Origin: Robertmurraya dakarensis
GTDB lineage: Bacteria; Bacillota; Bacilli; Bacillales; Cytobacillaceae
Direction: 5' to 3'
DNA length: 64,000 bases
NCBI RefSeq assembly: GCF_900156875.1
Contig: NZ_LT707408.1
Span: 1,315,395-1,379,394 of the forward strand
Positions within the stretch are counted from its first letter, which is position 1, and each line of letters opens with the position of its first letter. Below the pieces are notes generated by a model. The model searched no databases and was not told the origin of the DNA. It saw only the letters and a program-made list of their open reading frames with translations. Below are positions 58,222 through 61,617 of the stretch, one piece after another. A program made the position numbers and the translations under genes.

Positions 58222-60573
58222 ATGGCGAAGAGAAAAAGAAGAAGTTCAAAAAATCAACAGAATATTAAACGAACCCTTAAGTTTGAATTAATAGGGCTCA
58301 TATTAGTCGCGCTTTCTGCGATATCAATGGCTGAATTAGGAGCAGTTGGGACATCTGTAGTCTTATTTTTTCGCTTCTTCATTGGTGAGTGGTACATGGT
58401 GTCATTGCTTGCGTTGGTAATCTTGGGTGGATACTTTATATGGAAACGGGAAATCCCTTCCTTTTTTCATCCAAAATTGATTGGAATTTATCTTATCATA
58501 TCCGCACTACTATTATTAAGTCATGTCACCCTTTTTCAACTATTAATTAATGGCGGGAAATTTGACGATCCGAGTGTTATCGCAAATACTTGGGAACTCT
58601 TTTGGATGGAAGTAGGGGGAGAAACAAGTACGAATGATTTGGGCGGTGGAATGATTGGCTCACTTCTTTTTGCCCTATTTTATTTTTTATTTGATGAAGC
58701 TGGAACAAAGATTATAGCAGCTGTATTAATCATTATTGGCTTTATTCTTCTGACAGGCAAAACTTTTGGAGAAGCGGTGGGGAAAGTCTTCCTTTCCTTA
58801 GTTGGTTTCTGTAGAAATCAATGGTCAGCTTTTATCGATGATCTTACGAAATGGAATGAAAAACGCCTTGAAAGAAGAGAAACACGCAGGCGAGAACGTG
58901 CTGAGCAAAGAGAGGAAGAAGAAGAGGATGAACAAGAACCTACCATAACGATTAATAGTCATGATAGTGAAATTGTATCTTCAGAGCCGATCATCTCTAG
59001 CTTTGCTGAAAGAGCTTACGTTGAAACAGATACTAATGTGCAGACAGAATCAGAAACTCTCAGCAGAGAAAGTGTTCAAGAAGACGATACTGTGGGCTCA
59101 GAAGATGATACAGCCCCACCTATTACATTTACAGAGGTGGAAAATGTTGATTACGAACTTCCGCCAATTCGTTTATTGAAACTTCCACGGCAAACAGACC
59201 AAAGCGGGGAGTATGAATTAATACATGCGAATGCAGCAAAATTGGAAAGAACATTCCAAAGCTTTGGCGTTAAAGCACGTGTGACTCAAGTCCATCTAGG
59301 ACCAGCAGTCACAAAATATGAGGTTCACCCGGATGTCGGTGTGAAGGTGAGTAAAATTGTCAGCTTAAGTGATGATTTAGCGCTAGCACTTGCTGCTAAG
59401 GATATTCGTATTGAAGCACCTATTCCAGGAAAGTCTGCGATTGGGATTGAAGTTCCAAATTCAGAGGTAGCAGTTGTGTCATTAAGGGAAGTGTTAGAAT
59501 CAAAACAAAATGACAAACCTGACGCAAAGTTGATGATCGGATTAGGACGAGATATCACCGGGGGAGCAGTCCTTGCGGAGTTAAATAAAATGCCCCATCT
59601 ACTTGTTGCTGGTGCTACTGGAAGTGGGAAAAGTGTCTGTATTAATGGGATCATTACAAGTATTTTAATGCGGGCAAAGCCTCATGAAATCAAGCTAATG
59701 ATGATTGATCCTAAGATGGTTGAACTAAATGTCTATAACGGGATTCCGCATTTACTTGCACCTGTTGTGACGAATCCGAAAAAAGCTGCTCAGGCGCTTC
59801 AAAAAGTTGTCAGCGAAATGGAACGCAGATATGAGCTTTTTTCTCATACAGGAACTAGAAATATCGAAGGTTATAATGAACATGTAAAGAGAAGTAATTT
59901 AGAGGAAGGAAGTAATCACCCGCTGCTTCCGTACATCGTGGTAATTGTTGATGAGCTCGCAGATCTAATGATGGTTGCATCTTCTGATGTGGAGGATGCC
60001 ATCACTAGATTAGCACAAATGGCACGTGCCGCAGGTATTCACCTTATCATCGCAACACAGCGTCCGTCTGTTGATGTTATTACAGGAGTGATTAAGGCCA
60101 ATATACCGTCAAGAATAGCATTTGCAGTTTCTTCAGCAACAGATTCACGTACTATTTTAGATATGGGGGGAGCGGAGAAACTGTTAGGAAGGGGAGATAT
60201 GTTATTTCTGCCTGTAGGAGCTTCGAAGCCTATCCGTGTTCAAGGAGCTTTTTTATCTGATGATGAAGTTGAAGAAATTGTAGATTTTGTCATTGGACAA
60301 CAAAAAGCACAGTATCAGGAAGAAATGATTCCGGAAGATGTTCCTGAAACAACTTCTGAAGTAAATGACGACCTTTATGAAGAAGCAGTCCAGCTCGTTC
60401 TAGAAATGCAAACGGCATCAGTGTCGATGCTGCAGAGACGATTTAGAATCGGTTATACTAGAGCAGCTCGTTTAATTGATGAAATGGAATTAAGAGGAAT
60501 TGTAGGCCCTTATGAAGGAAGCAAGCCAAGAGTTGTCCTAATGGAGAAGCCATCAGAAGAAGCAAGTTCTTAA
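58222..60573 (+). CDS. spoIIIE: DNA translocase SpoIIIE
   Basis: 783 residues. Four to five N-terminal membrane helices (about 22-175), an acidic linker (about 210-310), the alpha/beta motor with Walker [10 protein letters not shown], Walker [16 protein letters not shown], and a C-terminal gamma winged helix (about 715-775, [20 protein letters not shown]) that reads SRS/KOPS-type sequences. It pumps the trapped chromosome into the forespore. Confidence 0.97.
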
Positions 60574-60578
60574 AATAA

Positions 60579-60589
60579 TTTCACTTTAT
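60579..60589 (+). repeat. Left 11-bp direct repeat TTTCACTTTAT
   Basis: Identical to 60787-60797. It lies 5 nt after the spoIIIE stop and bounds the structured element at 60590-60797. Confidence 0.75.
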
Positions 60590-60797
60590 CGCAGGTTAAC
60601 GGGCAGTAAGCCCCCACCTTGGATATTATGAGTATACAAAGAAGATAGGAAGGGGCCAACTGCCCGTAAAAGCCCGACGACGGACAGGATGTCCTAGTCA
60701 GGTGAAAGCCACAGGACGTGGCGGGTTGAACGTGATTAGTTCAACTAACCATCAGTGAGTAAAAACAAAACCCTCACTGATGGAAGTTTCACTTTAT
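60590..60797 (+). mobile_element. 208-bp ORF-less, highly structured element (possible non-autonomous transposon or guide-RNA-like remnant)
   Basis: Bounded by perfect TTTCACTTTAT repeats. Exact pairings by eye: ACGGGCAGT (60599-60607) with ACTGCCCGT (60659-60667), with GCCCC/GGGGC inside; GGACA (60682-60686) with TGTCC (60690-60694); GCCAC (60708-60712) with GTGGC (60718-60722); GTTGAAC (60725-60731) with GTTCAAC (60739-60745); CCATCAGTGAG (60749-60759) with CTCACTGATGG (60773-60783). CCCG (60673) may close on CGGG (60722) around two stems. GC-rich compared with the flanks. No reading frame. The terminal hairpin plus a T-rich flank recalls IS200/IS605 right ends and their omega-RNAs; a HEARO-type RNA or an unknown leader RNA are alternatives. 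Confidence 0.6.
60787..60797 (+). repeat. Right 11-bp direct repeat TTTCACTTTAT
   Basis: Second copy of 60579-60589, just 3 nt after the 11-bp terminal hairpin (60749-60783). Removing 60590-60797 would leave one copy, as expected of an empty site. Confidence 0.75.
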
Positions 60798-60821
60798 TTA
60801 TACCTAAAAAAGTGATATAGT
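60793..60821 (+). promoter_or_regulatory. Weak sigma-A-like promoter for the GntR gene
   Basis: TTTATT (60793-60798), 17-nt spacer, TATAGT (60816-60821). The -35 overlaps the right direct repeat, so the element boundary may form part of the promoter. Confidence 0.35.
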
Positions 60822-60846
60822 ATTTTCGATTAGTAGGAAAGATTGA

Positions 60847-60864
60847 ACATCAGAGGTCTGATGT
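60847..60864 (+). promoter_or_regulatory. Palindrome, candidate operator of the GntR regulator
   Basis: ACATCAGA (60847-60854), GG, TCTGATGT (60857-60864): a perfect 8-bp inverted repeat about 26 nt downstream of the -10 and 28 nt before the GntR start. Size and place fit an autoregulatory operator. Confidence 0.5.
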
Positions 60865-60891
60865 CTTGAGATTATGGTTGGGGGAAGCGAT

Positions 60892-61617
60892 ATGTCCATC
60901 AAGTCTGATAATAGGCATTTATACTTACAAGTGATCGACAGGATCAAGCAAGATATTGAAAAAGGTATATATAAAGAGAAAGAAAAATTACCTTCTGAAT
61001 TTGATCTTGCTAAACTACTTGGGGTCAGCAGGGCCACATTAAGAGAAGCTCTTAGGATTTTAGAAGAAGAAAATGTGATTATTCGCAGGCATGGAGTTGG
61101 GACTTTTGTTAATGCAAAGCCTCTATTCTCTTCTGGAATTGAGCAACTTAGCAGTGTGACAAGCATGATCGTACAAGCAGGGATGAAACCCGGTACCATT
61201 TTCCTAAGCTCAGGCACTGTAAGTGCTACGGAGGAGGACGTTCGACATTTTCATTGTTCTAGAGAAGATGAAATTGTCGTGATTGAACGGGTTCGGACAG
61301 CAAACGGTGAACCAGTTGTCTATTGTGTTGATAAAGTACCAAATAAGTACTTACCTGAGACTTTTTCACATGAAGAAGAATCGATCTTCAATATATTAGA
61401 AGAGGAAGCACACCGAAAGATTACATACGCTATCACAAAAATCGAACCAATTGGATATCACGAAAGAATTTCGCCAATACTACAGTGTGAGCCAGAAACT
61501 GCATTGCTTATCTTAAAGCAGATGCATTTTGATGAAATGGATGAACCTATCCTTTACTCGATTAATTATTTTAGGGCAGATAAGTTCAGTTTTCATGTCT
61601 TACGTAAAAGAATTTAG
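60892..61617 (+). CDS. ymfC: GntR family (HutC subfamily) transcriptional regulator
   Basis: 241 residues. N-terminal winged helix (about 8-75: [49 protein letters not shown]) and C-terminal UTRA ligand-binding domain (about 90-235). GGGGGAAG 5 nt before ATG 60892 supports this start over ATG 60874. Position after spoIIIE matches B. subtilis ymfC. Next to a nucleoside-type BMP transporter, it probably senses that substrate or a derivative; this is inference. Confidence 0.88.

Follow-up and report, generated by a model that had tools for sequence, protein, structure and literature searches.

On the evidence of sequence comparison, positions 60590-60797 of the DNA analysed here are one copy of a gene-less, hairpin-rich mobile repeat that is scattered through many soil relatives of Bacillus. 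The whole stretch, 64,000 nucleotides of contig NZ_LT707408.1 of Robertmurraya dakarensis, is referred to as the window. We consider it probable that this copy is a non-autonomous member of a Bacillales repeat that moves as a single strand in the manner of IS200/IS605 elements, with the transposase supplied in trans. An odd 208-bp stretch is in this way recognized as a copy of a widespread and recently active repeat family. The window element is best described as a composite variant of a repeat of known kind, present here by insertion, and its mode of movement is likely single-stranded. The original prediction had described an ORF-less, structured element between direct repeats and had interpreted it as a decayed or non-autonomous mobile element; the observation was partly confirmed and the interpretation partly supported.

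Most of what had been observed at the locus was reproduced. The 11-mer TTTCACTTTAT is exact at 60579-60589 and at 60787-60797, and is absent elsewhere on the + strand of the 64-kb window. The region 60560-60840 gave a folding energy of -93.5 kcal/mol, compared with a mean of -61.3 ± 4.7 for shuffled sequences (z -6.9; 0/200 shuffles as good). No ORF of at least 40 amino acids was found across the element, and the GC content of 60590-60786 was 49.7%, against 41.3% and 32.8% in the flanks. The window contains 11 exact 11-bp direct-repeat pairs at a spacing of 150-300 bp (some mutually overlapping), and 20 mononucleotide shuffles gave a mean of 4.6, so the direct repeat is by itself weak evidence. 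The case for a mobile element rests on the comparison with relatives instead.

The element was absent from this locus in all six congeners, each of which has TATTTATTTAT where the window reads TTTCAC-TTTAT-TTAT. This comparison concerns the right junction only, as the left flank of the window cannot be aligned with those of the congeners. At the threshold used, the six congener genomes gave no match to the element anywhere (0/6). A promoter at the far end of the element had also been proposed as a sign of insertion, and this did not hold: no sigma-70-like site was found there on the + strand. The TATAGT-containing stretch TATAGTATTTTCG (60798-60900, upstream of the GntR gene) is common to five of the six congeners, and the sixth has TATATTATTTTCG (TATATT) in its place. 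Since congeners without the element have this stretch, it is older than the insertion. The window insertion can accordingly be placed, from this alignment, upstream of an older, conserved stretch before the GntR gene. The parts of the window copy are listed below.

60590..60797, + strand: mobile element (208 bp), beginning past the left TTTAT and ending with the right TTTAT, as indicated by pentamer polarity, empty sites and 12 places in the own genome.
60585..60589, + strand: target TTTAT in the left flank, outside the element; the left pentamer varies among copies and the right does not, and the congeners have TATTTATTTAT.
60579..60584, + strand: TTTCAC, a probable right-tip remnant of a former tandem neighbour, or chance.
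60599..60667, + strand: hairpin 1, with arms ACGGGCAGT / ACTGCCCGT and 5' foot TTA(A); the arms covary in 37 full-length relatives.
60668..60677, + strand: first half of the conserved centre, AAAAGCCCGA, cut by the insert; short copies have the uninterrupted GCCCGATTGGTTCAACTAAC.
60678..60735, + strand: double-hairpin insert (58 bp), RF01690-related, with hairpins at 60682-60694 (loop AGGAT) and 60708-60722 (loop AGGAC).
60736..60748, + strand: second half of the conserved centre, TTAGTTCAACTAA, with CTAA as the 5' foot of hairpin 2, from the alignment.
60749..60783, + strand: hairpin 2, CCATCAGTGAG / CTCACTGATGG, from fold, covariation and alignment.
60784..60797, + strand: right tip AAGTTTCACTTTAT, whose last five bases are the element-borne cleavage-like site (right TTTAT in 83/84 copies).

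The 11-bp repeats had been taken as the boundaries of the element. These were revised: the element extends from about 60590 to 60797, and the left TTTAT belongs to the target. As for the TTTCAC on the left (60579-60584), a tandem neighbour that has since been lost most likely left it behind as its tail, unless it arose by chance. Internal junctions in the tandem arrays of genome G031 read GAAGTTTCACTTTAT in 31/31 cases, and two other copies in the own genome (L002 and L012) have TTTCACTTTAT on the left side too.

The basic repeat unit measures ~153 bp and consists of two hairpins, a conserved centre and the right tip GTTTCACTTTAT. At 208 bp the window copy is longer because of its insert, which splits the centre into GCCCGA before and TTAGTTCAACTAA after. 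From 89 right-end matches in 80 loci, 37 full-length copies with 145-170 bp between their ends were aligned. After TTTAT, the order of parts in these copies is CSCRN, a YTAA foot, hairpin 1 (most commonly with the arms ACGGGCAGT / ACTGCCCGT), the centre AAAAGCCCGATTGGTTCAACTAA, hairpin 2 (CMATCAGTGGGG / CCCCACTGATKG) and the tip GAAGTTTCACTTTAT; the invariance of the tip reflects its inclusion in the search pattern. The YTAA feet are common to both hairpins, and RNAalifold predicts that part of the hairpin-2 foot is itself paired. Changes on both sides were seen in 12 of the 31 predicted pairs, as a raw count without shuffle or tree control, and several base pairs of hairpin 1 were altered on both sides jointly. 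No terminal inverted repeats were seen by eye in the 37-copy alignment.

Units of other lengths also occur. Many are lengthened by nested hairpin modules, which occupy the centre or the hairpin-2 loop. Short units of ~54-63 bp made up 7 of the 89 right-end matches, and minimal elements of ~53-58 bp are recurrent (L109, L116, L117, L119, L148, L175); the long unit has two CCCCCAC repeats, and the short forms apparently arose by deletion between them. One orthologous site holds a long unit in G447 (L342) and a short unit in Cytobacillus firmus DS1 (L175). At six other loci (L133, L145, L146, L283, L286, L288), the centre contains part of the right end of a different copy, in inverted orientation (GTGAGATACAGTGAAACTT..AGTTGAACCAATCGGG).

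The search of genomes for further copies, proposed along with the original prediction, gave 16 matches to the window element in the own genome, which we read as 12 places. Of a first set of 101 genomes, 47 matched, with the own genome counted in. Matches were found in at least 119 of 397 sampled Bacillales genomes, in 59 of 136 genera, the number of genomes being a lower bound because scoring was confined to two candidates in each genome. Among named contigs, a pattern scan gave at least 119 stretches, from genera that include Cytobacillus, Niallia, Lysinibacillus, Oceanobacillus, Peribacillus, Psychrobacillus and Sporosarcina. One of these stretches lies on a 4.6-kb Modestobacter contig, which is probably contamination. 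A single match was found on plasmids, in Pseudalkalibacillus, and six hits on viral contigs, where no transposase was seen between the element ends. Four viral contigs (L408-L411) carry a 100-bp variant of the element near one end (GGTGAGGGCTAATAATCAG form).

Comparison of genomes within genus g17 revealed precise empty sites. Copy L267 of genome G022 is absent from seven relatives in this genus: the flanks join at a single TTTAT in G041, G447, G449, G451, G455 and G457, and at TTGAT in G454. G452 has an insert of ~270 bp at this site. A second precise empty site was obtained by comparing L339 with L146 of C. firmus DS1. The own-genome copy L247, the second to be compared with the congeners, is absent from them, and its junction is not alignable. 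Absence of any empty site and of other copies had been named as evidence against an insertion; both were found. Median pairwise identity was 96.2% in G447 and 96.8% in G449 (15 copies each, best matches to L267), and one copy in G041 is identical to the L267 copy. Movement is therefore recent. In addition, G031 contains at least eight tandem arrays of 3-8 units that share one TTTAT (e.g., contig C1, 4053947-4055189). The one array examined has a 153-bp period with four of six units identical, and the sequences suggest that the arrays arose by local amplification of single insertions. The claim of an insertion was thus borne out, as the congeners are without the element and the element is dispersed and mobile.

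The original prediction read the direct repeats as the mark of insertion. Under a target duplication of TTTAT, any odd pentamer on the left would be expected again on the right. Among the 30 copies of G447 and G449, TTTAT was found on the right in 30/30 and on the left in 22/30. The final count was made on 84 distinct non-tandem copies from G031, G022, G447 and G449, and copies directly preceded by another right end were left out (18 in G031, 2 in G022 and 2 in G447). TTTAT was present on the right in 83/84 and on the left in 63/84, and the two sides are discordant, contrary to a duplication. By genome, the left side had TTTAT in 31/41 (G031), 12/15 (G022), 10/13 (G447) and 10/15 (G449), and the right side in 41/41, 14/15, 13/13 and 15/15, respectively. 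Bases mismatched to TTTAT numbered 27/420 on the left and 1/420 on the right. Taken singly, G031 (Fisher p 0.0009) and G449 (0.03) gave a significant contrast; G022 (0.06) and G447 (0.24) did not, and the p value for the pooled sets was 1e-7. The only copy with both pentamers deviant (L285, 80% identical) has two pentamers that differ. Because the left pentamer varies and the right one is fixed, we take the left to be the target and the right to be carried by the element. One of the three closest pairs of copies (L332 and L340) has the odd left pentamer GTTAT in common, which counts against this reading, since it would be expected if the pentamer travels with the element. A count with a loose pattern, which included many false matches, gave no left/right contrast in G031 or in G447 and G449 together and was superseded by the 84-copy count. 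The asymmetry makes the movement of bcr1-like TTTAT repeats directly testable.

The pattern of the repeat ends suggests movement as single-stranded DNA. The window copy probably entered the spacer ahead of the GntR gene, 3' of a TTTAT. A single top strand would be cut 3' of a TTTAT-like sequence at both ends, and the YTAA feet of both hairpins, which read as complementary to the TTA of TTTAT, may be the guides that pair with it. Cutting would be carried out by a transposase acting in trans. The window copy itself represents a composite subtype, in which a double hairpin of Bacillaceae-1-like type separates one half of the conserved centre from the other. As the polarity is IS200/IS605-like, the comparison with IS200/IS605 holds for the mode of working. 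This part of the original prediction stood with respect to the subterminal hairpins, the T-rich target on the left only and the element-borne cleavage-like site on the right. Membership of the repeat in IS200/IS605 was not shown, because Y1 transposases were absent from 5 of 11 genomes and no gene-bearing copy was found in the parts looked at.

IS200/IS605 elements are described as using the lagging-strand template (PMC6006769), and the orientation of the repeat relative to replication was determined in four genomes. The contig start was taken as the origin (DnaA comes first in G031, G447 and G464; dnaA confirmed by Pfam) and the terminus was assumed at half length. Among the matches listed for G031, the element points with the fork at 35/39 sites; by context, these include 11/12 between divergent or convergent genes, 2/2 at head-on genes and 21/24 at co-directional genes. 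Among the matches listed, the element points with the fork in 9/15 cases in G447 and 8/13 in G464, neither of which is significant, and in 12/15 in G449, for which the origin was assumed. The evidence for a strand bias across these genomes is mixed.

A survey of 11 genomes of genus g17 detected Y1 transposase genes (PF01797) in six and none in the other five (G447, which is one contig, G041, G022, G451 and G452). Three of these five (G447, G022 and G041) have signs of recent movement. In the repeat-bearing set, PF01797 was not detected in 4 of 14 genomes (G041, G018, G022 and G036). Three Y1 genes, confirmed by Pfam as PF01797, are present in the own genome (G000 C11 3069810-3193832; L076-L078), and from their length we take them to be RAYT-like. 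Those at L077 and L078 adjoin other palindromes, of the TGTTYCAC and GGTACC types, as seen by eye. The IS200 elements of G455 and G031 were rejected as mobilisers, their determined ends being unrelated to the repeat ends. No autonomous copy was found in G022 on reading 57 matches (40/54 candidates scored). Among 85 pairs of left and right ends in the named and viral loci, no gene was found between the ends of an element; three of the pairs exceed 420 bp, and two of ~490 bp were left aside. One candidate of >420 bp (L194), with an MFS gene between its ends, is a false pair: the right end belongs with a separate left end. The full-length relative envisaged in the original prediction, with a gene between its ends, was not found in the parts looked at, nor was a nuclease gene seen with the element there. 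Either the genomes gain and lose a Y1 enzyme, or movement is due to an unrecognised enzyme.

The insert of the window copy was matched by Rfam family RF01690 (Bacillaceae-1) on the minus strand at 60681-60746, with 27.7 bits. This is below the gathering score of 35, so the insert is not assigned to the family, and its sequence indicates a related, sub-threshold form of the RF01690 double hairpin. The insert has the identical placement in all seven G018 copies fetched (L228-L234). In relatives, nested RF01690-related modules scored 38.8-79.8 bits, which is above the gathering score. Scans at gathering level covered 35 loci (16 + 19), most of them picked for holding these elements, and gave 21 matches, with the right end of an element at most 220 bp downstream in 21/21. 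The module occurs nested in either orientation. At five of the 35 loci (L237-L241), where it lies outside elements, no RF01690 match was obtained at threshold, and modules without TTTAT-type ends in sight were found in G035, G036, G050, G051 and G060. Bacillaceae-1 is entered as 'Y' in the column 'RNA?' by Weinberg et al. 2010 (PMC2864571). The nesting of RF01690 inside the elements casts doubt on its annotation as an RNA gene, because covariation in a mobile DNA hairpin can mimic RNA structure.

The AGGAY loops of these modules read as RUCCU on the other strand, the name by which such loops are called. Within AGGAY loops of Bacillaceae-1-like modules, a mini-element of ~50 bp (AAGGAAAGCT..GCGATACATCGC..) was observed at six loci. 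It is flanked by AGGAY on both sides in L098, L287, L289 and L293; the flanks differ in L102 (AGGAT, AGGAC), and the right one is altered in L160. As read from these sequences, the mini-element is a third level of nesting. Judged by eye, a tnpB-like reading frame at another locus (L027, G050 C18) appears to contain a Bacillaceae-1-like hairpin repeat. An interpretation of the CAGGAYG loops as CsrA-like was dropped because the modules occur in both orientations.

Other explanations of the repeat can be weighed against these data. One is a TTTAT-flanked MITE moved by cut-and-paste or by a site-specific recombinase, for which TTTAT would be a 5-bp target duplication or a crossover site. It would account for the presence of TTTAT at either side of most copies, for the tandem arrays with one common TTTAT and for the single pentamer in empty sites, and it is close to the view of bcr mobility printed in PMC6542083, where site-specific recombination at TTTAT is given as possible. 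We nevertheless regard it as distinctly unlikely: the pentamers vary independently (deviant on the left in 21/84 and on the right in 1/84), the two deviant pentamers of L285 are different from each other, and the 37-copy alignment revealed no terminal inverted repeats. In its specific form as the MITE of a DDE transposon, it was rejected on the absence of terminal inverted repeats in that alignment (by eye) and the discordant pentamers. The strong fold, the covarying hairpins and the cataloguing of RF01690 as RNA would also fit a conserved RNA linked to the GntR operon downstream, be it a leader, a riboswitch or an sRNA, and bcr repeats are described as often lying within transcripts (PMC3446304). 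Such an RNA is very improbable, however, as the element is absent at the locus in 6/6 congeners and, at the threshold used, from the congener genomes, and copies occur at many unrelated places with both gene orientations around them. The leader RNA that the original prediction had kept as an alternative is, as a locus-tied regulator, already contradicted by these comparisons. Almost no credence can be given to a decayed IscB/HEARO or TnpB/omega-RNA element, which the original prediction had offered as one of its readings, although the hairpin ends and the T-rich target on the left speak for it. No Rfam family reached the gathering threshold in the window, and the Rfam check found HEARO to be missing from the seven weak, sub-threshold matches at 60500-60900, a result that bears on omega-RNA only if Rfam has such models. 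No coding relative was found in the parts looked at.

Two further possibilities share the single-strand mode of movement. The repeat could be a PATE in the strict sense, derived from an ordinary IS200/IS605 element with a Y1 gene that is present in some strains or is plasmid-borne and quickly lost. This is a sub-case of the preferred explanation, with which its probability overlaps, and it is a serious possibility, if one of somewhat less than even chance. The polarity and architecture are as in the preferred explanation, and Y1 genes occur in 6/11 genomes of genus g17, and the own genome has three. On the other hand, the IS200 ends in G455 and G031 are unrelated, two of the three own-genome Y1 genes lie beside other palindromes (by eye), and five genomes of genus g17 are without Y1, of which three (G447, G022 and G041) have signs of recent movement. 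It is also conceivable, though rather unlikely, that the repeats still move by single-strand, TTTAT-targeted transposition without a known Y1 (HUH) enzyme, and that 'Bacillaceae-1 RNA' is a nested DNA module whose AGGAY/RUCCU loops are landing sites for smaller inserts and not components of an RNA. Movement in genomes without a known Y1 enzyme would mean that an unrecognised single-strand transposase is used.

The preferred explanation, a non-autonomous repeat moved in trans as a single strand, can be compared with several known systems. In published descriptions, IS608 inserts 3' of a tetranucleotide, which remains in the left flank, and its guides lie 5' of both hairpins (PMC5934647). The repeat also lies 3' of a short T-rich target kept on the left, and its hairpins each have a short 5' foot sequence; it differs from IS608 in being without a transposase gene and in having TTTAT at both ends, compared with TTAC and TCAA (PMC5934647). 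Like REP sequences associated with RAYT, it is a palindromic dispersed repeat that is possibly moved in trans by a Y1 enzyme, but two of the three own-genome Y1 genes lie beside other palindromes (by eye), and no PF01797 was detected in G447 or G022. PATEs and other non-autonomous IS200/IS605 derivatives have subterminal hairpins, a target on the left only, an element-borne right site and no duplication, all of which the repeat resembles. It differs from them in that no cognate Y1 element was found and several repeat-bearing genomes gave no Y1 gene. With RF01690, the window insert has in common the double hairpin with AGGAY loops, whereas the module is here nested inside a mobile repeat, in either orientation.

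There is also a close resemblance, by description, to the repeats of the Bacillus cereus group, for which a TTTAT motif and MITE-like behaviour are in print (PMC6542083, PMC3446304). Of these, bcr1 is listed at 147 and 167 bp (PMC2267715) and is described as having plasmid copies too (PMC6542083). The element is hence not undescribed in the strong sense that had been claimed for it. Its distribution, its polarity and the nesting of RF01690 go beyond the printed accounts found in a literature search of limited depth, and the RF01690 link may be in print. According to what is reportedly stated in a 2004 abstract on bcr1, the unit is ~155 bp and absent from large plasmids. Like bcr1-bcr3, the repeat is described by a ~155-bp unit with TTTAT at both ends and no ORF, by many dispersed structured copies and by MITE-like behaviour. 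Homology with bcr1, compared by description and not by sequence, is plausible. The repeat differs from bcr1-bcr3 in occurring beyond the B. cereus group (in Cytobacillus, Niallia, Lysinibacillus, Oceanobacillus, Peribacillus and others), in the RF01690-like insert of the window copy and in the asymmetry of TTTAT that the present analysis revealed.
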